Assembly (NCBI GenBank): GCA_021791245.1
Contig: JAJYWY010000017.1
Coordinates: forward strand, 1 to 46,180
Reading direction: 5' to 3'
DNA length: 46,180 nt
From: Microcaldota archaeon
GTDB taxonomy: Archaea > Micrarchaeota > Micrarchaeia > Micrarchaeales > CABMGC01
The notes under the pieces were generated by a model, which saw only the letters and a program-made list of their open reading frames with translations, searched no databases and was not told the origin of the DNA. Position numbers and translations under genes: made by a program. This document shows positions 1 through 30,659 of this stretch, in pieces. Numbering within the stretch: the stretch's first letter is position 1; every line of letters begins with the position of its first letter.

Positions 1-3000
1 ACAAAAAGCCGGGGGGGGGGGGGGGGGGGCGGAACGTATTCTTATTCAATACCTGTGCAGGCAACGATACCCCTTAATGGCACTGCGGATCCACTGGAAG
101 CGCAGCAGGGTGTCTTTTCTCCAATATCTTTTGCATCTCCATCTCAATTGCCAATAGTAGGCGCCGAAGGCGATCTTGTATCCGGAAGCTATTATGAGAG
201 CCCCACTGCAAGCGTATATGCAGTATCAGGCAGCCCTTCGTTTGCATACGGCACGGTCATATACTCCGGCCCTTCATCATGTGCGGCAGTAGAGGCAAAT
301 GTAATATCCCCATTTAACACAGCCCCTATGAATCACAGCATAATAATAGTAACTTCCAATGCCGTAAACATAACTGGGCTGAACTGCCAAATAGGGAATA
401 ATGTTGCAGGAGTAATATCTAATACCATAAATGTGCAAACAACGCCTAATTCCGCGTATCTTGTATATTCTGGAAACTTCGCGCTCGCCGGCGCTTTCAA
501 GACAGGTATGAAGGTGTTGCTTTACGGACCCGGCTTGGATGCAATTAATCTTGATGGAAACAATGGAGACGGATTCATAGAAAGCATTGCAAATGGAAAG
601 TTCTTCCCATCTAAATTCATGCCTTCATATATAGATCGTGCGGATAACAATATTGGCGCGGAGAGCTCTCATGGAATATTCAAAATATCAGGGTACAATA
701 CACAATCAGCATATTTCGATGGAAATGGAAATATAATAATACCTCATTCTCAGTCCTTGGCTCTTACTGGAAACTTTGCGCTGAGCTGGTGGTTCAACCC
801 TTCATTGTCACAATCTGTGAAATACGATGAAGAGATGGTTAACTCAAGGTGCCCTACAGATACCACATTTGACATGCAGCTTATAAGCGCAGGCTATAAC
901 TCAGGAGTATATGGGCTGCACGGGGATGTAGGAACAGGTACAGGTACATGGCTTGCTACAGACATAAATTATCAATATGTGTTCAGCAATAATACCTGGT
1001 ATAACGTTGCAGTAGACATAGCAACTTCGGGGTGGTCTCTTTATCTTAATGGAAACGAAGTTTCATCTGGATCATACTCTGGAACCCCAAGCCTTACTGA
1101 TGGCAATAGCAATATTTATTTGGGAGAATGTGGAACGCTCCCTTCAACAAATTTCAACGGCAACATGGCTAATTTGCAAATATACGGATCGTCACTTTCA
1201 AGTTATAATATAAGTAGGATATATTCAAGAGGGATAGATGGGCTTCCACTGAACACAAACTCCCTTGCAGCATGGTATCCTTTCAATGGGAATACCACGG
1301 ATGAAAGCGGCAACGGCAACAACGGAATACCTGTAAATACAATATTCAAGCGCATGCCTAGCTATAACGGCGATTCCATAAACGGCGGAAATCCAGCAAA
1401 CAATACTATGCCTATACCAGGAGTGCTGGGTTGCGATAGCTTCGGAGAATGCACAAACCAATCTCTGCCGCACTTGTACGGCACTTCTACAATGCCTGCC
1501 TCTGCATTGCAGCAGTCTCTTCAAGTCGCAAAGTTTAGCTATAATAAAAAAAGTTATATCCCTTCATTCTCTCCACAAATAAATACAGCTTCAGGCGATT
1601 ACAACACAGTTTCATTCTGGATGTTTTGGAATCAATCAATTGCAGGCAACACAAGGCCATTTGGATTTAATGTATATAGTCTTGTTGGCTGCGGCATGGA
1701 ATGCACTCCACCAGTGTTTGGCTTCAATACCGATAATGGAGATTATTATGGGATAAGCACCGCAAGTGTAAACGGGCTTAATGATCACTGGGTAAACGTA
1801 GTTGCAGAATTCTATAATGGATACTATACAGGAAACAGTTTTATCTATATTAATGGCACAAAGCAGACTTTGGTTCAAACAATAGGTACAGGACAAGGTG
1901 CTATCAGCACACCATACTATACTATTGGCAATTGGGGATTGCTTGGCAATTATTGGAATGGCGATATTGCGAATCTTCAAATATATAACGGATCACTTAA
2001 TTCAAATCAAATATCAACATTATATAAAGAAGGTATAACAGGGCTTCCGCTTAATGATGGCAGTCTTGCAGCATGGTATCCTCTCAATGGCAATGCAAGG
2101 GATTATTCCGGCAGCGGAAATGATGGACTTGCATACAATGTGACATTTCCATATTTTTATCTTGCTGGATACACGCCTGGCAGTAATCAAGTGTTGTCTG
2201 AACTTACTAGTATTTTCAATATTGCAAATATATTCCAGCTTTTCGGACTTACAACTCCCACACCATTAGGCAATGGGCAATACCATGTAGTGGTAACGCT
2301 CACAAATACGCAGTCATTGCCCACTCCTGTGCCGTTTCAGCAGATGGTGACTGTAGATAGCGCAACATATTCAAACTATGAGGATACAAACCTTGACAAT
2401 GTATATTTCTCATATGCAAATGGAACCATAATACCCAGTTGGCTTGAAAGCTGCAGCTCTACGTGCAGCACAAGCGGTTCTTCAAGCACAAGCACGGTAT
2501 ACTGGCTTAAGCTGAATAAGCCTATACCAGCTGGTGGGGAGATGCTGATTTACATGAGCTTTGCGCCAAAAGGCGTTAACATGTTCAATGGTAAGACAAT
2601 CGGCGAGGCTCCACAGCTCAGCTCAACCTACGCTCAATACGACGACGGGGCGAGCGTTTTTTTGGCTTACTTTAATATGCAAAACAACCCTATATCCTCA
2701 TCGCATTTAGGAACATCATATTATAGTATAACAACTACAACAGGACCAAATGGAGTAAATCAACCCTTACTTACGTGGACAGGAACTACTGGACAAGATT
2801 TTGATTTTATCAATTTAGCTTCAACTCTTCCATCAAATTACATAATTACTGATTGGGTTAAGTCAGATGCTCAAAGCTATGATATTGGCTTAGGAGCAGG
2901 TTCAACAACAGCAGGAGAGTGGGATGGTTATGTTGTTGACCCAGGAGCAAATACTAATGTAGATTTTAATTTATGGAAAATAACTGGGACTACTTTTGGA

Positions 3001-3300
3001 GTTCTTACATCTGTATCTTACTCCCAATCAGCAAGCACTTGGTATACTTTAGAGTTTCAATATGTATCAGGAGGCTCTATGACTGGCTGGGTAGAGCCAT
3101 GGCAGAACACTCTTGACGCAAGCTCATCATCTAATAAAGTTACTGGTTCAGATACTACATATACCTCTTTTAATGCAATAGAGCTGTTTCCTTACTCTGG
3201 TTCAACATCAGACATAACTTCTTGGGCTTTAATGGTCGCCCGTGCCTACCCTCCCAACGGCGTGATGCCTAGTGTAAACTTTGGGTTGGTTGGAAGCTGA
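1..3300 (+). CDS. Large surface protein with two LamG/concanavalin-A-like domains and a C-terminal DUF2341-like region; 5' end open at window edge
   Basis: ORF 55-3300 starts at an internal GTG; the same frame is open back to nt 1 (..GGGGGTYSYSIPVQATIPLNG). Two repeated LamG-type units (GLPLNTNSLAAWYPFNGNTTDESGNGNNG and GLPLNDGSLAAWYPLNGNARDYSGSGNDG); DUF2341-like end ARAYPPNGVMPSVNFG. Confidence 0.75.
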   Translation, partial: TKSRGGGGGGGTYSYSIPVQATIPLNGTADPLEAQQGVFSPISFASPSQLPIVGAEGDLVSGSYYESPTASVYAVSGSPSFAYGTVIYSGPSSCAAVEANVISPFNTAPMNHSIIIVTSNAVNITGLNCQIGNNVAGVISNTINVQTTPNSAYLVYSGNFALAGAFKTGMKVLLYGPGLDAINLDGNNGDGFIESIANGKFFPSKFMPSYIDRADNNIGAESSHGIFKISGYNTQSAYFDGNGNIIIPHSQSLALTGNFALSWWFNPSLSQSVKYDEEMVNSRCPTDTTFDMQLISAGYNSGVYGLHGDVGTGTGTWLATDINYQYVFSNNTWYNVAVDIATSGWSLYLNGNEVSSGSYSGTPSLTDGNSNIYLGECGTLPSTNFNGNMANLQIYGSSLSSYNISRIYSRGIDGLPLNTNSLAAWYPFNGNTTDESGNGNNGIPVNTIFKRMPSYNGDSINGGNPANNTMPIPGVLGCDSFGECTNQSLPHLYGTSTMPASALQQSLQVAKFSYNKKSYIPSFSPQINTASGDYNTVSFWMFWNQSIAGNTRPFGFNVYSLVGCGMECTPPVFGFNTDNGDYYGISTASVNGLNDHWVNVVAEFYNGYYTGNSFIYINGTKQTLVQTIGTGQGAISTPYYTIGNWGLLGNYWNGDIANLQIYNGSLNSNQISTLYKEGITGLPLNDGSLAAWYPLNGNARDYSGSGNDGLAYNVTFPYFYLAGYTPGSNQVLSELTSIFNIANIFQLFGLTTPTPLGNGQYHVVVTLTNTQSLPTPVPFQQMVTVDSATYSNYEDTNLDNVYFSYANGTIIPSWLESCSSTCSTSGSSSTSTVYWLKLNKPIPAGGEMLIYMSFAPKGVNMFNGKTIGEAPQLSSTYAQYDDGASVFLAYFNMQNNPISSSHLGTSYYSITTTTGPNGVNQPLLTWTGTTGQDFDFINLASTLPSNYIITDWVKSDAQSYDIGLGAGSTTAGEWDGYVVDPGANTNVDFNLWKITGTTFGVLTSVSYSQSASTWYTLEFQYVSGGSMTGWVEPWQNTLDASSSSNKVTGSDTTYTSFNAIELFPYSGSTSDITSWALMVARAYPPNGVMPSVNFGLVGS
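11..29. repeat. Poly-G homopolymer tract (19 G)
   Basis: Direct reading: gcc-(g)19-cggaacg, inside the open frame of the LamG protein. Confidence 0.9.
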
Positions 3301-3374
3301 TATAAATTCGTGTGCCTTTTATCCTGACAAGCAAGCAGCAAACATGCCAACAGCGCTCCTGCATGCTGCTATTC

Positions 3375-4028
3375 CTACTTGATTTGGAGGCGATTTATTA
3401 CTTCCATCCACCTTTTTATCTGGCCTTCCACAAGCAGCGTCTTGCCTTCTATAACTCTCCCAACATAGTTTTCTGGGGAGTTAATCCCGGCAAGGTTTGC
3501 ATACAAAAGAGCTGCCTCGCGCAACTTCATGTTAATTGCCGAATCTGCATCTTTTCCAGAATACTCCGGATAAGTCGGCGTAACGCCTATCATCTTTGCC
3601 AATGCATAAAATTCTGCCGCATGGCTGTAGCACTTAATGCTGCCTTCAAGCATGATCATCTTTTTATCTTTTTGGCTTTCCCTGCCAAATAAATCCATGT
3701 TCATGTCTCCATATGATATGTACTCATTAGTTGCCATCTCGCATACTACACCTATAAACTTGAGCATATTCTTGCAGCTCTCTTCGCTGTCGGACTTCAG
3801 CATTATCGTAAGCTGAAGCAACAGGTACTCCAATGCCCCTCCATATCTTTTGCTTTCAAGAAACGCCCCTGCATCATCCCTAAGTGCGCTTTTTGCAAAT
3901 TCGTATACTTCCTGTATGCACTTTTCATCGTTAAGCTGGCCATTTCTGAGCAGGTCGAAGCACTGCTTCACAATCTCTATGGACTTCCCCTTGGAATAGT
4001 TATTCTTTATAGATATTATTTCATCCAT
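3375..4028 (-). CDS. Hypothetical alpha-helical protein, paralog of the adjacent 4036-4767 gene
   Basis: Intact ORF; shared pattern with neighbour (LRNGQLNDEKC..FAKSALRDDAGAFLES vs VRNEQLDRMQK..FAMQALRQDAHMLLWEN; LKFIGVVCEMA vs LEYIGTVCEFA). Confidence 0.7.
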   Translation of the reverse strand: MDEIISIKNNYSKGKSIEIVKQCFDLLRNGQLNDEKCIQEVYEFAKSALRDDAGAFLESKRYGGALEYLLLQLTIMLKSDSEESCKNMLKFIGVVCEMATNEYISYGDMNMDLFGRESQKDKKMIMLEGSIKCYSHAAEFYALAKMIGVTPTYPEYSGKDADSAINMKLREAALLYANLAGINSPENYVGRVIEGKTLLVEGQIKRWMEVINRLQIK

Positions 4029-4035
4029 GTAGATA

Positions 4036-4767
4036 TCACCCTATTTTGCAATCACAATTCTCTTCCTGCACCTTCTTCACGGCATCTATAATTCCGGATA
4101 CACTATCCAATCTCTTCTTTACTTTGCTATCGCGCTCCCTCAATATAGGCATAAGATAGAGATCAAAGTACTTTATCGGGTCAACCAGTATATTTTTGGA
4201 CAATGCCTTCACTGAATCTGCAATCATCTTATCTGCAGTTGAATATACAGGAAGGCTTCTGGAATGCTGGAAATAATAAAGCTCTGTGCTTCCTATCTTC
4301 TTGGCTATCTCACAATATTCCTGTGCTTCTATGCAAAAGTGTATGCAATCATCGAGAAGCCTTGTCCTGTCATATCCATCCTTTTCGTCTGCTTTTTGCA
4401 TAGACTCAAACCCTTTCTTCAACGATTCTTCAGCCGCAAATTCACATACTGTGCCTATATACTCCAATATATCTTTTGAGTTCCTGGTGTCTTCGCATTC
4501 CAGCGAAAGCTCAAGCATCCTAAAGAAAACCTCTACAGCTTTTCCATATTCCGCCGCTTTCCCCACATTTTTGTTTTCCCACAACAGCATATGCGCGTCC
4601 TGTCTTAGCGCCTGCATTGCAAATCCCATAAGTTCATGTTTCTGCATTCTGTCCAATTGCTCGTTCCTGACGATTTTTAGGCATTCTTCTGTTAAAGAAT
4701 GGGAACTTCCTACGAAATACGACTTTTTAAATTCTGATAGGCATTCATTATATCGGTTTTCTTCCAT
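4036..4767 (-). CDS. Hypothetical alpha-helical protein, paralog of 3375-4028
   Basis: Intact ORF, tandem same-strand arrangement, 7-nt gap to paralog. Confidence 0.7.
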   Translation of the reverse strand: MEENRYNECLSEFKKSYFVGSSHSLTEECLKIVRNEQLDRMQKHELMGFAMQALRQDAHMLLWENKNVGKAAEYGKAVEVFFRMLELSLECEDTRNSKDILEYIGTVCEFAAEESLKKGFESMQKADEKDGYDRTRLLDDCIHFCIEAQEYCEIAKKIGSTELYYFQHSRSLPVYSTADKMIADSVKALSKNILVDPIKYFDLYLMPILRERDSKVKKRLDSVSGIIDAVKKVQEENCDCKIG

Positions 4768-4988
4768 GTAACCTCCATTTGTTTAGCAAGTATAATATGC
4801 AATTAGATTTATAAAATGCAAAATGCTATTATGCAAATGACGTAATTTTGGTATCTGGTTTGGGCATCGGATTTGGCTTCACGTATCGTTGAATGCAGAC
4901 TTGCATGGTTTTCAATTGGGTTTCCAATATGGGATGAATTGCCTTCCATTATTATGCAATGGCCACAGGTTTTAGCCGAAGCTGCAGC

Positions 4989-5522
4989 CTACTCCCTCCT
5001 CTCTTTCCCTATATCTTCATGCACTATATATCTTTCGTACGCAGAGGCAAAGTTTGACACATGCGTTTCCATGTCAACGAATTTCTTCAGGCATATCTTC
5101 CTGAGTACTGCAGACGAATCTTCCGGAAAATATCTGATCATCTCCATGCTCGCCTTTATCAGCTTCCTGTTTGATGTGCAGATTTGCAATATTTTGTCTT
5201 TGCCAAGCAATTGTGCGATCTTGGAATAATATATAGAATCATAGCATGAGAGTATCGAAGTTATATAGCCCTTTAGCCATACCGCAGCCTTTGACTCGTC
5301 GTTCTCTTCCATATAATGCACTAGCATGTCGTGCATGGAGTCGCTCTTGGCATCAGCAGAGTTAATGGCCTTATCTACAGCCTCTTTTAGCGCTATGAGC
5401 TGCTCCCGCGCATATTTGTAATCTCCAATGCCTATTGCAAGAACGAATATAAAAGAACTGCGCGACGCCTTGAATTCAGCGTCTCCTTCATGCTCATTTT
5501 CTCTGTTCCTAAACATATCCAT
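4989..5522 (-). CDS. Hypothetical helical protein
   Basis: 177-aa ORF; its ATG directly abuts the TAG stop of the upstream gene at 5522/5523. Confidence 0.6.
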   Translation of the reverse strand: MDMFRNRENEHEGDAEFKASRSSFIFVLAIGIGDYKYAREQLIALKEAVDKAINSADAKSDSMHDMLVHYMEENDESKAAVWLKGYITSILSCYDSIYYSKIAQLLGKDKILQICTSNRKLIKASMEMIRYFPEDSSAVLRKICLKKFVDMETHVSNFASAYERYIVHEDIGKERRE

Positions 5523-5870
5523 CTAATTCCTTCTTACAAAGTACTTCAAAAGCAGAGTAGACGCTAATTTATGGTCTTGATTTTTGGATGAATATACAAT
5601 ACACTCATAAAAGAACTTCTGGGCATTATCCAGATTGCCTTCCGACATATTGTATATGCCTGCAATATATGCAACATGGGCAGCCTGTGCGGTCATCGCA
5701 TGCCTGCCTTTCTCGTCATTGTTCTTCTTGCAAAGTATAATGCCGTATGCGCATACATTTATTGCCTTTATGAATTCTTTTTTCTCTAGTAATTGCACCG
5801 CTTGCCTAATCAAGATATCCACAGGCACAGAATTTCCGTAATTATTATCCTTGAAATTTTCTGCGGGCAT
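5523..5870 (-). CDS. Hypothetical TPR-like small protein
   Basis: 115-aa ORF with helix-turn-helix repeat look (LLEKKEFIKAINVCAYGIILCKKNND.. GNLDNAQKFFYECIVYS). Confidence 0.55.
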   Translation of the reverse strand: MPAENFKDNNYGNSVPVDILIRQAVQLLEKKEFIKAINVCAYGIILCKKNNDEKGRHAMTAQAAHVAYIAGIYNMSEGNLDNAQKFFYECIVYSSKNQDHKLASTLLLKYFVRRN

Positions 5871-5918
5871 AGTAATTATCTGCCACTTAAAAGGTTTTAT
5901 TACTTTTGTACAGGGGTT

Positions 5919-6863
5919 TTAGATTAGGTTGAGGGCAGAGAACATGATAGGGAGTATTATCGTTGCGTCTCCGTCTACCGTAACCTGCTTTGCCTTTTCC
6001 TTCACCTTACCCCATGAGATCGCTTCCGTAAGCCTAGCTCCAGAAAGGCTTCCGTCGTATTGCGAGGCCGTAGTTATGTATACTGCATAATCGAGGCCTC
6101 CTTTGAACTGGTTCCACCATATGACATGATGTTTGCTTATTCCGCCGCCAACCATCAGTGCTCCAGTGACCTTATGGTCAAAAGATATGTTGCTGAGCTC
6201 TAGCTCATCCTTGAGCAGGTTCAGCTTGAAATTATGGTCCTGCGAGAAAAGCACCATCTGGGTGCCGAATGCCCCGTCAAGTATGCCTGGATTATATATA
6301 GGCACTTTATTCAGGTATGCCTGGCGCACTATAGAGCCGCTGTCATTTATCCTTTTTCCGAATTCCGCTATTATCTCGCTTGCGCTGAATTCAGTCTTGT
6401 GACCCTCTTCAGAATATATATCATTCATGATTCTGTTGAATTCTTCTTCAAGCACCATGCCGTAATTTTCCTTCCCTATGAAAACATTTCCCAGCCTGTA
6501 TATGTCCTTTCTGTGCAGCTCTGCATCGTCCGCCTCGAACCTGCCTATGCTATACTTGCCCCCAGAAGCCCTTGCTATGTCGTGGTCAAGGGTTCCGCAT
6601 GTAGTTATTATCGCATCGAAATACTTTACTGCTCCGGCAAGCACTCCGCGGAGGCCTGTTGACACTATGTCCGCAGGGAAAGAAAGGAAATTGAAAGATT
6701 CATTGTCTTCGATCATAGCCCTCAGGGCTTCTATGCCGTCTGCCATCTCCTGGCCCGAAAAGCCTCCCATGTCTGACATTTCCTGTATGAGCTCAGAAAC
6801 CTTCATGTCTTTCCTTAGCTTGACATCCTTTACGTGCCTTGACAATATATCATTCTCCGTCAT
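5919..6863 (-). CDS. dys: Deoxyhypusine synthase
   Basis: TTCGTLDHDIAR, VGGGISKHHVIWWNQFKGGLDYAVYITTA, and C-terminal EAISWGKVK containing the expected active-site Lys. Confidence 0.93.
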   Translation of the reverse strand: MTENDILSRHVKDVKLRKDMKVSELIQEMSDMGGFSGQEMADGIEALRAMIEDNESFNFLSFPADIVSTGLRGVLAGAVKYFDAIITTCGTLDHDIARASGGKYSIGRFEADDAELHRKDIYRLGNVFIGKENYGMVLEEEFNRIMNDIYSEEGHKTEFSASEIIAEFGKRINDSGSIVRQAYLNKVPIYNPGILDGAFGTQMVLFSQDHNFKLNLLKDELELSNISFDHKVTGALMVGGGISKHHVIWWNQFKGGLDYAVYITTASQYDGSLSGARLTEAISWGKVKEKAKQVTVDGDATIILPIMFSALNLI

Positions 6864-7033
6864 TCAACCACTCTTTACGCTATAATAACTGAATATTTCA
6901 ATAATATTTTGCAACGCGAGCTGAAAACTCCGTACTATTTTATAGAATATAAAACGCAGCAATTCATATAAACATTCTTATTTATTATTAATTAAGTATA
7001 TTGTTAGATAAGAAAAAAGGGGATAGTGATAAA

Positions 7034-7597
7034 ATGACGTTACATGCCAAAACACGGAAAGCACAAAGCGCAATGGAGTACTTGATGACATACGGTTGGG
7101 CTATATTGATCATAGCCGTAGTGTTGGGAGTCCTCTTCAACATAGGTGTGTTCAATGGCGCAGGAGCGCTTGGAACATCATGTGTAGCATATTCTGGATT
7201 CTTATGCTCATCGCCGATACTAAGCCATACTACAGGAAACTTGATAGTGACAATAGGCCAGAATACAGGCATAGACTGGGCTTCTGCAAACGTAGTGTTC
7301 GTGCCGCAAGGAGGAAGCACAACATCAGGAGGAGTGCCGCAGGTTAGCAGCGAACCACAGGTTCCAGGTTTTTCTGCAGGTAATACATTCAACGGAGTTG
7401 CTTACAATGGCGCAGCAAATGCTCTAGGTTCATTCAACTCAGGCCAAAGCCAATCTATAACTCTTGTAACCGGACAAAACTCAGGGATAAATACAGGTAC
7501 GTTGGTATCTGGAGCAATATGGTCAGCATACACAGTCTCTGGATCGTCAAATGTATATTACGTCCAGATGGCAACTGCAAACCTGAAGGCAGTATAA
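7034..7597 (+). CDS. Class III signal peptide / pilin-like secreted protein
   Basis: N-terminus KTRKAQSAMEYLMTYGWAILIIAVVLGVLF (archaeal prepilin-type Q-[ST]-A-[MI]-E-Y motif). ATG at 7034 preferred over TTG at 7001 in the ORF track. Confidence 0.8.
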   Translation: MTLHAKTRKAQSAMEYLMTYGWAILIIAVVLGVLFNIGVFNGAGALGTSCVAYSGFLCSSPILSHTTGNLIVTIGQNTGIDWASANVVFVPQGGSTTSGGVPQVSSEPQVPGFSAGNTFNGVAYNGAANALGSFNSGQSQSITLVTGQNSGINTGTLVSGAIWSAYTVSGSSNVYYVQMATANLKAV

Positions 7598-26580: not shown

Positions 26581-27356
26581 TTCAGATGAAAATAAAGCTT
26601 GTGGCGAATAAGGAGTATAAGGAGTTGGAAAAGCTTAGGGAAGCGTTCAGCGTCTCGGATGACGGTGAGATATGCATTGCACTTGGAGGCGACGGGACTT
26701 TAATAAGGGCAGCGAGAAACTACAACGGACCGATACTGCCGATAAGGAGCGGGGAAAAGGGCAGCATAGGCTATTATTCAGACTTGTCTTTTGACGATAT
26801 AGATTTCGCAATAAAAAAGCTCAGGGATGGAGATTACACAATTGAAAAGCTTGAAAACAAGATGCTGCTCAATTTCGCAGGAAAGGAATATCATGCAGTG
26901 AACGAAGTCCTGCTGCACAACGTGCTCGAAGAAGTAAGCTTTAGGATATACGAAATCAGGAATGACAGAAGATATGAAATATATCCCTATATAATAAGCG
27001 GAGATGGAATTATAGTGACAGGCGCGATAGGCTCTACAGCATACAACAAGGCAGCAAGAGGACCCATAATTATGGTGCCAAACGTGATGTGCATGACATT
27101 CCTAAATGTAGACGGGCCGTACAGCAATCCAATTGTCGTTGACGATTCAAAGATTATAGAGATTGAAATAGTAAAGTATACAGGGACATTGAGATATGAT
27201 GGGATAGACCTGGGGGTACTTAATGCAGGAGACAAGTTCAGGATAATGACATCAAAGGAAGAGCTAAAGATGGTGAGGTTCAATGAAAAAAAGGAGGAGT
27301 TCGCACAGAAACTAGATAGAATTATTAAAAGCAGGATGGTAAATTGGATGGAATAG
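26577..27356 (+). CDS. nadK: NAD kinase
   Basis: ICIALGGDGTLIRAAR, NEVLLHN, VTGAIGSTAYNKAARGPI; overlaps nadM stop by 4 nt. Confidence 0.92.
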   Translation: MIQMKIKLVANKEYKELEKLREAFSVSDDGEICIALGGDGTLIRAARNYNGPILPIRSGEKGSIGYYSDLSFDDIDFAIKKLRDGDYTIEKLENKMLLNFAGKEYHAVNEVLLHNVLEEVSFRIYEIRNDRRYEIYPYIISGDGIIVTGAIGSTAYNKAARGPIIMVPNVMCMTFLNVDGPYSNPIVVDDSKIIEIEIVKYTGTLRYDGIDLGVLNAGDKFRIMTSKEELKMVRFNEKKEEFAQKLDRIIKSRMVNWME

Positions 27357-27517
27357 ATCATTTATTTTGCAGTTTTTGGAATAATACCCCCAATTTGCAC
27401 ATGAAATGAATTGTGATATCAAAGCATTTCTCCCTTAATTGGGACGGTTGAAGCATGACATTATATCGCCACTCGGAATAGATAATGTTATATAAGTAAC
27501 TTGCAAATATCGCTTGT

Positions 27518-27603
27518 GCAGGGGTGGCAGAGCTTGGCCAAATGCGGCGGGTTCAGGGCTCGTTCTCTTAGCGAGTGCGAGAGTTCAAATCTCTCCCCCT
27601 GCA
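27518..27603 (+). tRNA. tRNA-Leu(CAG)
   Basis: Acceptor GCAGGGG/CCCCTGC, anticodon arm GCGGG-TTCAGGG-CTCGT, long variable arm, T arm GAGAG-TTCAAAT-CTCTC, discriminator A followed by CC. Confidence 0.93.
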
Positions 27604-27606
27604 CCT

Positions 27607-28383
27607 TTAAATCAATCCAGTAACTTCAAAGCGCTCCAGAAGATATTCTTTCACATCTCCATATTTGACAAATTCACTTTCTGGCAGCAGCCTTTCAAGC
27701 TCCTTGTTCCATATAAGACCCAGCTGCTCCATCCTGGCAAGCAGTCTGTCTTTTGTGAATGTATGGCCGTATTCCTTCATCTTTTTGTCTATCATGCTAA
27801 CTTCAAAATCTACGCCCCCTCTTGCTAGAAAATAGATATCATACAAATCCCTGGCCTTAACATTATGCCTGAAAAGCAACGCAACAATCTTCTCTGATAG
27901 TATCTCCCTTCTGTTCATAACTACTGCAACGTATGGTTTTAAGTCTGTGTATGTGGGATTTCTTCTAAATACCTCTGTCTTCTCAAGGACAGACGCCTTC
28001 TTATCAACTTCTATCTTTAGATGCTGGTATTTATTCAGCATCTCGAATAACGGGCCCCTTACGCTAAGCTCGTACACAAGCATATCTGCTTTATTTTTCT
28101 TCCTCATAACCTTCAGCGGGTATTCCTCAGAGATCTTGCTTATCACATCATCAAGCAACATAGGCAGTTTATTTTCGCCGCTTCCGCGTACCAGTGAGAA
28201 GTCAAGATCATCAGAGAATCTTATAGAGTTATAGAATTTAGAGAGTGCCGTCCCTCCCTTAAATACGAGCTTACCGGTCGCTGCGTATATTCCACTGAGA
28301 AATAGTTCTTCCACGTAGTCCTTCTCCTTCTGATACGGTTGCTCGTAAATGCTCGTTTTCAGAAGTTCATCTTTCTCAATCAT
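27607..28383 (-). CDS. Nucleotidyltransferase AbiEii/AbiGii toxin family protein
   Basis: GIYAATGKLVFKGGTALSKFYNSIRFSDDLDFSLV; EIL SEKIVALLFRHNVKARDLYDIYFLARGG. Confidence 0.92.
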   Translation of the reverse strand: MIEKDELLKTSIYEQPYQKEKDYVEELFLSGIYAATGKLVFKGGTALSKFYNSIRFSDDLDFSLVRGSGENKLPMLLDDVISKISEEYPLKVMRKKNKADMLVYELSVRGPLFEMLNKYQHLKIEVDKKASVLEKTEVFRRNPTYTDLKPYVAVVMNRREILSEKIVALLFRHNVKARDLYDIYFLARGGVDFEVSMIDKKMKEYGHTFTKDRLLARMEQLGLIWNKELERLLPESEFVKYGDVKEYLLERFEVTGLI

Positions 28384-29027
28384 GCGCCCGCCTTGTTTAC
28401 TTTTACCGAAGCGGCTAGTTTTTTAGCTCGTTCCGTATATCCGTATTCTTTCAACAGCGCCGCGATTCCGACAAGTACTGACCTTTTTTTGCTTTTCATT
28501 GCATAAAACATAAGCCTGTTTATGTCCATCCTGGCTGGCCGTTCAAGCGCAGAGGGATCGAGATCATTTATGTCACTAAAATAATATATGTCAATCAACG
28601 CTTTTTCCGGTTCCGCGATGAATATGTTGCCATCAGCTTCCTTACGGTATCCGAACAGCATATCTTTTTTTATTTTTTTGAAAACGATGTCGAAACCAGC
28701 AACCCCCCTGATTTTACTGTGCCTTTTCGTTGAGACAACATAGACCACTCTTGGTATCTGTGTGGTCAAGCCATAGTAAGCAAGTGCGGACACCATACTT
28801 ACATACGAAGGGCTCACTACATGCGACGCTATCTCATATTCGTTGTACCTTTGCTTTAAATAGTATAAGCCCCTTTCGACCCTGCCGATAAACCCTTTGT
28901 TCATGCATCTGTGAAGGTAAAGAATGGAATACGGTCTGCTCTTACGCAGGATTTTTTCCGCGTCATTTAGGGTAAACACCGGCATGTGTCTTTCGATTAG
29001 GAACCTTACAAACTCGTTTGTCTGCAT
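28380..29027 (-). CDS. AbiEi-family antitoxin / transcriptional regulator
   Basis: N-terminal wHTH (LNDAEKILRKSRPYSILYLHRCMNKGFIGRVERGLYYL) plus YVSMVSALAYYGLTTQIPRVVYVVSTKRHSKIRG; 4-nt overlap with toxin. ORF track start is 29081; ATG 29027 (MQTNEF) preferred. Confidence 0.9.
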   Translation of the reverse strand: MQTNEFVRFLIERHMPVFTLNDAEKILRKSRPYSILYLHRCMNKGFIGRVERGLYYLKQRYNEYEIASHVVSPSYVSMVSALAYYGLTTQIPRVVYVVSTKRHSKIRGVAGFDIVFKKIKKDMLFGYRKEADGNIFIAEPEKALIDIYYFSDINDLDPSALERPARMDINRLMFYAMKSKKRSVLVGIAALLKEYGYTERAKKLAASVKVNKAGA

Positions 29028-29069
29028 ACTAGTAATCTGCACGAGAATATATATAAATATATGTGTTAA

Positions 29070-29093
29070 ATTAATTATCAAATGATAATTAAT
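29070..29093. promoter_or_regulatory. Inverted repeat upstream of the AbiEi TATA region (candidate operator)
   Basis: ATTAATTAT-CAAATG-ATAATTAAT, adjoining AT-rich atatatttatatatatt before AbiEi ATG. Confidence 0.5.
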
Positions 29094-29147
29094 GACGCAT
29101 TTAATTACGCTAAGCCGCGCAAGGCTTAGGGCCCTGTGTCTTAGGGC

Positions 29148-29175
29148 TGCGAGAGTTCAAATCTCTCCCCCTGCA
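29148..29175 (+). repeat. 28-bp exact copy of the tRNA-Leu 3' end (attR-like)
   Basis: tgcgagagttcaaatctctccccctgca identical to 27576-27603. Confidence 0.9.
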
Positions 29176-29570
29176 TAATCGATAAGCTTCAGCTTAGCAG
29201 CGTGATAGAGAAATCCTACGCTTTATTATGGATGAAAGATAAACGTAGAAATATGTATAAATATGGATGTCAATAAAATAGGTATGGAATTGATAATGGT
29301 ATGCAAATTAAGGATCTATCATTATGCAGAAAGACAGAATGGGTAGATGGAAGGCTACTTCTTGCGAAACAGTCCTACAACAGGGTTCTTAATAAGACAA
29401 AATTTTCAATTGTACAGTTAAATAGGTTAGCCATGGAGATAATCCAAGAGGGCAATAAATTCATGAAAGTGTATTCGCAGACAAGATGCGATTTAGTGGC
29501 TCTATGAATGCATGGAAAGCCCACAAATTTACGGATTGAAATATGGCACGCACTATGATAAGGCGGATCT

Positions 29571-30659
29571 ATGGAAATACTAGACACTACTATAAACCTT
29601 CTTTTGCTTGCTGTAATAACCGTGCTTCTTGTAGAATTCTTGCTACCAAACATGCCACAGATAGTCACGGCAATAAGCAACCTTCTGCAGACATCATCTT
29701 ACCCATTGCAGAATTACAGCATAATAACTTCTTCGCAGGCTACTATACCTGGACAGGAAAGCACAACTGCAGTTACAACTATCCAAAGCAGCGAAAACTA
29801 CAGTGCATTGGTAAACTATACCTTGGGGCTGATAAATAAGGATCGTGCAGAGTACAATCTTGCCCCTGTATCGCTGTCTGCCGAACCTTCAGGCCAGCAG
29901 CATGCGGACAGCATGCTTGAATATTCGTATTTCAGCCACTGGGATATCTTTGGGCTAAAGCCGTATATGAGATATACGCTGCTTGGCGGCCTTGGAGCAG
30001 TAAGCGAGAACATAGCATATAGGTCAAGTTATGTATGCGTAGCTTCATTATGCACAGGCTCTATAAATCCTAAGTATGCGTTGCAGAGAATGGAATACAG
30101 CATGATGTACAACGATTCTGCATGCTGCAATAACGGGCACAGGGACAACATACTCAACCCATACCACAACATGGTAAGCATAGGGATAGCTTACGACAGC
30201 TCCAGGATATACCTTGTGGAGGATTTCATTGACAATTACATAAACTGGAGGGCAGGCTATCCCGCATTCTACAATGGCTATGTCGCAATAATCGGGAATC
30301 TCACAAAATATAATCTGTCATCTATACTGATAAGCTATGACAAGCCAGTATCTGGCATGACGCAGCTGCAGCTCAATGCCACATCCGACTATAGCTATGG
30401 CAAGGTAATAGCAGGTGTCGTGCCAAATGCAAGCTATTACTATTCGTCTGTAGATACAATATATGCAAGCATTTATTCAGTAAAGGGCAATGCATTCGAC
30501 ATAGAATTCGACATGAGGAACATTACCGATAAATACGGGGCAGGGGAATACACAATCATGCTGTGGCTAAATTCCAACAGCACCAACAGCTTTGTAGGAT
30601 CAACATACACGATATTCATTAATTCCAGCGGCGCGCAGGTTTTCCCTAGCAACGTGTGA
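29571..30659 (+). CDS. Membrane-anchored CAP/SCP (PR-1-like) domain protein
   Basis: N-terminal TM; LINKDRAEYNLAPVSLS..QQHADSMLEYSYFSHWD..SENIAYRSS..NNGHRDNILNPYHNMVSIGIAYDSSRIYLVEDF. Confidence 0.85.
   Translation: MEILDTTINLLLLAVITVLLVEFLLPNMPQIVTAISNLLQTSSYPLQNYSIITSSQATIPGQESTTAVTTIQSSENYSALVNYTLGLINKDRAEYNLAPVSLSAEPSGQQHADSMLEYSYFSHWDIFGLKPYMRYTLLGGLGAVSENIAYRSSYVCVASLCTGSINPKYALQRMEYSMMYNDSACCNNGHRDNILNPYHNMVSIGIAYDSSRIYLVEDFIDNYINWRAGYPAFYNGYVAIIGNLTKYNLSSILISYDKPVSGMTQLQLNATSDYSYGKVIAGVVPNASYYYSSVDTIYASIYSVKGNAFDIEFDMRNITDKYGAGEYTIMLWLNSNSTNSFVGSTYTIFINSSGAQVFPSNV

Follow-up and report, generated by a model that had tools for sequence, protein, structure and literature searches.

Integrase-less elements lying between attachment (att) sites, tandem accretion and genomic islands marked by repeated tRNA ends are all known, as judged from the accessible parts of published accounts (PMC5704250, PMC8371274, PMC11389934, PMC10872708). 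Cis-mobilizable elements (CIMEs) are integrase-less units between att sites at the 3' end of a tRNA gene and form arrays by repeated integration; the available sections of the source describe them as bacterial decay products of conjugative or mobilizable elements (PMC5704250). In the additive flexible genomic islands of Methylopumilus, the marker is a recurring tRNA 3' end, namely the last 20 nt of tRNA-Lys. Hitcher elements, including miniature inverted-repeat transposable elements (MITEs) and the cassette arrays known as clusters of attC sites lacking integron-integrases (CALIN), have no recombinase of their own and are moved by a helper enzyme, to go by the accessible text (PMC11389934). 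For archaeal tyrosine recombinases that target tRNA genes, the parts at hand of a review report a preference for the tRNA 3' part, tandem integration and integrated elements without an integrase (PMC8371274). Here, we analysed a stretch of 46,180 nucleotides from a Microcaldota archaeon (contig JAJYWY010000017.1; hereafter the window), in which an AbiEii/AbiEi toxin-antitoxin (TA) operon lies between the 3' end of a tRNA-Leu(CAG) gene and a second copy of that end. We consider it likely that this element (27604-29175) is a satellite without an integrase, which depends on a tRNA-Leu-specific integrase acting in trans for its movement and on addiction for its maintenance.

The locus differs from these systems in several respects. 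A CIME in the strict sense arises by decay of an integrative and conjugative or integrative and mobilizable element, an origin that the unit in the window, which holds the AbiE genes only, may or may not share; it belongs to a discrete 1.5-kb type found at several tRNA-Leu isoacceptors in two archaeal families. The Methylopumilus islands are bacterial, contain mostly genes of unknown function and, within the accessible text, are tied neither to a tRNA-specific integrase nor to TA units (PMC10872708). MITEs have no protein genes and CALIN arrays use attC sites and an integron integrase, according to the available portions of PMC11389934, whereas the site here is the 3' half of tRNA-Leu and the presumed enzyme a tRNA-Leu integrase. 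Tycheposons are tRNA-flanked and bring their own tyrosine recombinase, which the window's unit lacks. The locus also differs from an integron cassette array: its sites are tRNA-Leu 3' ends, with neither attC nor an integron integrase, and the integrase discussed below reaches 16.8 bits against the integron integrase model, whose cut-off is 265. The words DPANN and Micrarchaeota are absent from the archaeal tyrosine recombinase review (PMC8371274). Thaumarchaeal integrated elements are treated in PMC6563490, and Mia14 islands contain TA genes, with no tRNA cassette in the accessible description (PMC5498576). Our literature search, with most subscription journals outside its reach, returned no account of such cassettes in Micrarchaeota.

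The list of open reading frames (ORFs) and the Pfam and PADLOC matches agree with an earlier, sequence-only reading of the locus, according to which AbiEii and AbiEi are the only genes between the repeats; no recombinase is found among the ORFs there. The pair combines the two marks of the type IV TA family AbiE, an AbiEii nucleotidyltransferase domain and a winged-helix AbiEi antitoxin in the same operon, both recognised by family models, and the two genes overlap by 4 nt. In contrast to the described type IV systems, AbiEi remains below the cut-offs of Pfam AbiEi_4 (1.5e-4; 22.2 against 25) and NCBIfam (39.1 against 150). The GGT and SDDLDF residues, which we take to be the catalytic motif of AbiEii, are invariant across six aligned AbiEii sequences. 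AbiEii is under purifying selection, with ratios of nonsynonymous to synonymous substitution (dN/dS) of 0.058-0.157 in 21 pairs from seven copies. Within a palindrome upstream of AbiEi, the stretch TTAATTATCAAATGATAAT is kept in all six copies compared.

The 28-nt core has two exact sites in the window and no others, even if up to three mismatches are allowed. Two matches were reached in none of 100 dinucleotide shuffles, and the core repeat is beyond chance. The sequence-only reading had also proposed looking for similar repeats at other tRNA genes. Among 28 others of the same genome, whose flanks served as a control, two had a downstream tail repeat, namely a neighbouring tRNA at +58 and a match with four mismatches at +1425. 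The exact 28-nt repeat was correctly seen in that reading. Its length was understated, as homology of the right copy to tRNA-Leu extends 5' to position 29116, just ahead of the anticodon stem (~60 nt). The spacing of the AbiEii stop, given there as 4 nt past the tRNA, needs correction to three bases (27604-27606). The right arm best matches whole tRNA-Leu(TAG) genes, with 95% identity over 62 nt to that of a genome from another family (G059, family f2), followed by those of G127, G139 and G130. Identity to the tRNA-Leu(TAG) gene of its own genome is 84%, and because of this difference the right arm is probably the footprint of an earlier host, whose tRNA-Leu(UAG) gene served as the template. 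By our reading of the alignment, a single base change has put A opposite C in the anticodon stem, a mismatch to be expected of a non-functional tRNA copy.

To place the cassette in its order, we compared 164 genomes, including that of the window (G000), an 839-kb draft in 42 contigs of which the 46-kb contig C9 is a part. An AbiEii search at E <= 1e-60 gave matches in 15 of them. Close copies, with AbiEii 70-89% identical, number ten in nine genomes of two families; the tenth, on a second contig of G018, is truncated within AbiEii. Aligned from the tRNA end, the copies have ~1.5 kb in common and then diverge. The stop-to-tRNA distance could be assessed in nine of the ten copies, and in eight of these nine the AbiEii stop lies 2-5 nt beyond the 3' end of tRNA-Leu. 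This discrete unit occupies three isoacceptors, i.e., CAG (G000, G097, G161), TAG (G013, G137) and TAA (G023), as well as tRNA pseudo-copies in G018 and G129. The nine close AbiEii sequences form one clade (support 100/99). Six more distant homologues (49-58% identical) were found, one of them cut by a contig end (G032); none of the five that could be judged has a core within 2.5 kb of its stop.

Empty sites in relatives, another check proposed by the sequence-only reading, were found at two tRNA-Leu genes. At tRNA-Leu(CAG)-secF, the empty genome G096 has 196 bp between tRNA and SecF, whereas in G097, of the same genus and at the same locus, the AbiE cassette follows the tRNA directly, with flanks 90% and 92% identical. 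G097 has no right repeat and ~30 bp adjoining the tRNA are replaced. An AbiE unit at the same place without the tRNA repeat had been named beforehand as evidence against integration; we read the case of G097 as loss of the right repeat, since the empty site of G096 shows the insertion starting exactly at the tRNA end. At tRNA-Leu(TAG), G144 is empty and G143 carries a 1.4-kb ATPase unit with 69 nt of the tRNA duplicated and flanks 96% identical on both sides. A further pair at tRNA-Leu(TAG), G084 and G034, differs by ~0.85 kb in size, with no right repeat found. The tRNA-Leu-secF locus is a hotspot, with gaps of 132 to 3189 bp in 15 loci; a downstream tail repeat (<=6 mismatches) was found in none of these 15, and repeats at this locus are seen only in the window. 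The comparison with G013 and G018 indicates that the cassette moves horizontally, because AbiEii of G000 is 86% identical to theirs, whereas the host proteins reach 63% and 61% (aRF1), 48% and 52% (SerRS) and 57% and 53% (SecF), respectively.

The search for integrases that might act in trans, also proposed there, showed that a tRNA-Leu-specific family exists and that the N-terminus of a member lies in the window's own genome. Tyrosine recombinase genes directly follow tRNA-Leu(TAG) in L162, L165 and L229, and a core at the locus edge in L185; in all four loci the order is recombinase, cargo, conserved arm and core. Two of these candidate helpers were tested against PF00589 and matched it at 2.8e-11 and 1.2e-9. 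Immediately upstream of close relatives of the integrase (>=64% identical), tRNA-Leu is present in 18 of 20 loci (L265-L284, four of which are the same contigs as L162, L165, L185 and L229), or in 18 of 21 with L292, a partial match where a contig ends and no tRNA is called. Sixteen of the 18 are TAG, one is GAG and one, with internal stops, is CAG. Among nine relatives near 60% identity, eight have tRNA-Glu, -Val or -Pro upstream, none has tRNA-Leu and one has no called tRNA. Twelve further members (49-57%) adjoin tRNAs for Arg, Val, Glu, Tyr, Asp and Ser and one tRNA-Leu(CAG), with none called for three. In the window's own genome, the sequence between tRNA-Leu(TAG) and the end of contig C34 is 163 bp long and comprises the helper leader and the integrase N-terminus. 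It shares 78-85% identity with nine helper loci, which represent seven distinct contigs, and 16 of 20 N-terminal residues are identical to the query. A tRNA-Leu helper, whole or in part, thus was or still is present in this genome; its two longer integrase genes, one with an internal stop, lie at tRNA-Glu(CTC) and at a tRNA called Tyr.

Ahead of the far-end core, integrase-bearing elements have an arm of ~60 nt (TGAAATATGGCTAGGAATATAGGCGTGAAACAGCTAGGAAAC...) that is strongly conserved; it holds repeated GCTAGGAA and may bind the integrase. In L162, L165 and L229 the integrase frame is open back through the conserved leader into the tRNA 3' end, and in the C34 copy a stop interrupts this frame.

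Table 1 Features of the AbiE cassette in the window and sites of the conserved helper arm.
Feature	Position	Strand	Basis
tRNA-Leu(CAG), occupied target, still intact	27518..27603	+	ARAGORN (printed end 27605); discriminator A at 27603
Left core repeat (tRNA T arm plus 3' acceptor strand)	27576..27603	+	exact match search
Cassette body conserved between copies	27604..29107	.	homology stops near 29090-29117 in comparisons
AbiEii-type nucleotidyltransferase toxin gene, 258 aa, intact	27607..28383	-	PF08843 6.8e-27; PADLOC AbiEii 3.9e-62
Winged-helix antitoxin gene of AbiEi type, 215 aa (start at 29081 in a longer reading)	28380..29027	-	PADLOC AbiEi 8e-33
Palindrome ATTAATTATC-AAAT-GATAATTAAT upstream of AbiEi, candidate AbiEi operator	29070..29093	.	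read from sequences
Right arm and core (tRNA-Leu(UAG)-type gene, 3' part)	29116..29177	+	alignment to tRNA-Leu genes
Right core repeat, identical to left core	29148..29175	+	exact match search
Conserved ~60-nt arm	L162 before 6002; L163 before 2484; L087 before 10082; L179, L185, L229, L089
Conserved ~60-nt arm in L165	before core at 1056	-

From these data, we infer how the element might move. It would be non-autonomous, consisting of the AbiEii/AbiEi operon and an attachment segment formed by the 3' portion of a tRNA-Leu gene. Other elements would supply a tyrosine recombinase specific for tRNA-Leu, which would join the attachment segment of the circular cassette to the 3' end of a resident tRNA-Leu. 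Integration would leave this tRNA functional, while a tRNA-Leu 3' copy with the sequence of the source tRNA-Leu(UAG) gene would mark the far end. Between moves, AbiE would penalise cells that lose the cassette (addiction), with phage defence as a possible further role.

Several observations weigh against this reading. The right side was assessed in nine of the ten copies, and tRNA 3' ends flank the unit on both sides in the window and in four of the nine overall (right core in G000, G013, G018b and G023); no right core was found in G097, G161, G129, G137 and G046. In G046, 203 nt separate the AbiEii stop from the tRNA. Of the nine AbiE-bearing genomes, only two contain sequence of the tight tRNA-Leu integrase subfamily, incomplete in both cases: G000 has an N-terminus that runs into a contig end, and G013 has the leader only. 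A complete close helper was found in none of the nine, and the integrases located in G013, G097, G129, G137 and G000 are associated with other tRNAs or none called. Synonymous divergence (dS) between the window copy and six others is 0.72-1.04, and the last move of this copy is therefore old. Finally, the genomes compared are mostly draft metagenome assemblies.

The sequence-only reading had left two options, an integrase-less hitchhiking defence cassette, which fits better, and the remnant of a larger element, which fits less. As a CIME-like remnant, the unit would descend from an integrase-bearing element that lost its integrase and most of its cargo, so that AbiE alone remained between the att sites. 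An integrase leader without an integrase ORF is indeed retained by one unit in G013 and another in L163, and the accessible parts of two reviews describe integrase loss after integration (PMC5704250, PMC8371274). However, the same ends and ~1.5 kb are found in nine genomes, and independent decay is unlikely because identical boundaries recur. The unit in the window moreover has neither the helper leader nor the conserved helper arm. We thus regard a decayed remnant as an unlikely account; a single ancient decay followed by mobility in trans would be compatible with the satellite proposed above.

Judging from the high similarity of tRNA-Leu genes across the order and the several copies without a right repeat, AbiE might instead spread by homologous recombination or DNA uptake through the conserved tRNA sequence, free of any integrase. 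Such a route appears quite improbable to us: the left junction falls at the tRNA 3' end in eight of nine copies, more than one isoacceptor is occupied, and tRNA-Leu has an integrase family dedicated to it. The duplicated segments measure 28 to ~76 nt, which is short for homologous recombination. The right copy might also be no att site at all, being the functional 3' half of a split, trans-spliced tRNA-Leu; it begins ahead of the anticodon stem and, as we read it, could form a variable arm. Given whole tRNA-Leu(CAG) and tRNA-Leu(TAG) genes in the genome and the 95% match of an arm with a mismatched anticodon stem to a foreign tRNA-Leu(UAG), we rejected this idea, which has next to no chance of being right; a matching 5' half did not come to light, though no search was aimed at one. 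We prefer the hitchhiking satellite because nine genomes of two families have the 1.5-kb unit, at different tRNA-Leu genes, because empty sites are found and because a tRNA-Leu integrase family exists.

AbiE cassettes are one kind of unit at tRNA-Leu. Counting units with a core on both sides as they were encountered, which is not a random sample, we found 20 without an integrase ORF and six with one (L162, L165, L185, L229, G040, G075). Thirteen of the 20 carry AbiE, PIN-domain, HEPN-MNT or DUF2283/DUF4258 genes, identified by scans or by homology to a scanned copy. Four carry AAA ATPases, two of which were scanned with PADLOC and match the candidate systems PDC-S27 and PDC-S01; the other three carry an AlkZ-like gene, PadR, and DUF6155 with small ORFs, respectively. 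Arrays occur as well: in G040 an integrase unit is followed by two integrase-less units, and G013 has three consecutive units. A broader scheme is conceivable, which we put forward tentatively and at somewhat less than even odds. Micrarchaeota may possess a cassette-exchange system at tRNA-Leu, in which a tyrosine recombinase specific for tRNA-Leu shuffles small integrase-less units, mostly of TA or defence type, from one isoacceptor, array or family to another, with interchangeable tRNA-Leu 3' halves serving as att sites. This would be an integron-like logic built on tRNA ends, with the right arm recording the tRNA of an earlier host.

The locus offers a concrete, testable case of the spread of TA genes without a mobility gene among ultra-small archaea, and it suggests that the tRNA fragment beside a cassette may name the lineage of origin. 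If mobilisation in trans holds true, such TA units would be hitchhikers that are hard to lose, which bears on the clustering of TA and defence genes at tRNA sites.

Some further observations concern the core and its carriers. The order-wide core search, with at most five candidates scored per genome, revealed no second genome of the window's own genus, and the carriers among relatives are mostly labelled Candidatus Micrarchaeota. A set of 112 loci contains 121 exact cores, 18 of them classed as fragments, of which at least one (L186) reads as a whole gene cut at the locus edge; another 15 cores, which have a 5' acceptor, were taken to be whole tRNA genes. We initially classed G046 and G023 as fragment-flanked and rejected this, as their 5' ends reveal whole tRNA-Leu(TAA) genes missed by ARAGORN. 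Many tRNA-Leu(TAA) genes of Micrarchaeota (L090:1317-1426, L091:5899-6004 and others) have an enlarged D-loop and are missed in the same way; judging from the 5' acceptor, they look whole. The only match in an Rfam scan of 27300-29700 was a weak one to a plastid family and fell on the tRNA. A virus as vehicle was considered and dropped: the core has no exact match in viral_contigs, and no relative is among the 13 matches to an AbiEii pattern. In G018, the AbiE pieces on contigs C8 and C2 (L088, L089) overlap by 591 bp at 97.8% identity; they are either two separate copies or a sign of strain variation within the assembly.

The window also contains a CAP-domain gene (29571-30659), which lies between the right repeat and secF. 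It was tried as a synteny anchor and is present in 23 of 60 genomes searched, own genome counted, but none of the 23 loci has a called tRNA-Leu, so that SecF took its place; with its homologues lacking a called tRNA-Leu nearby, this gene may itself be another insertion, one whose end repeat is not recognised. In the helper element of L229, the cargo (2169-7397) includes thioredoxin-like, ArsR-like and mercuric-reductase-like ORFs, labelled by reading only, which suggests metal resistance.
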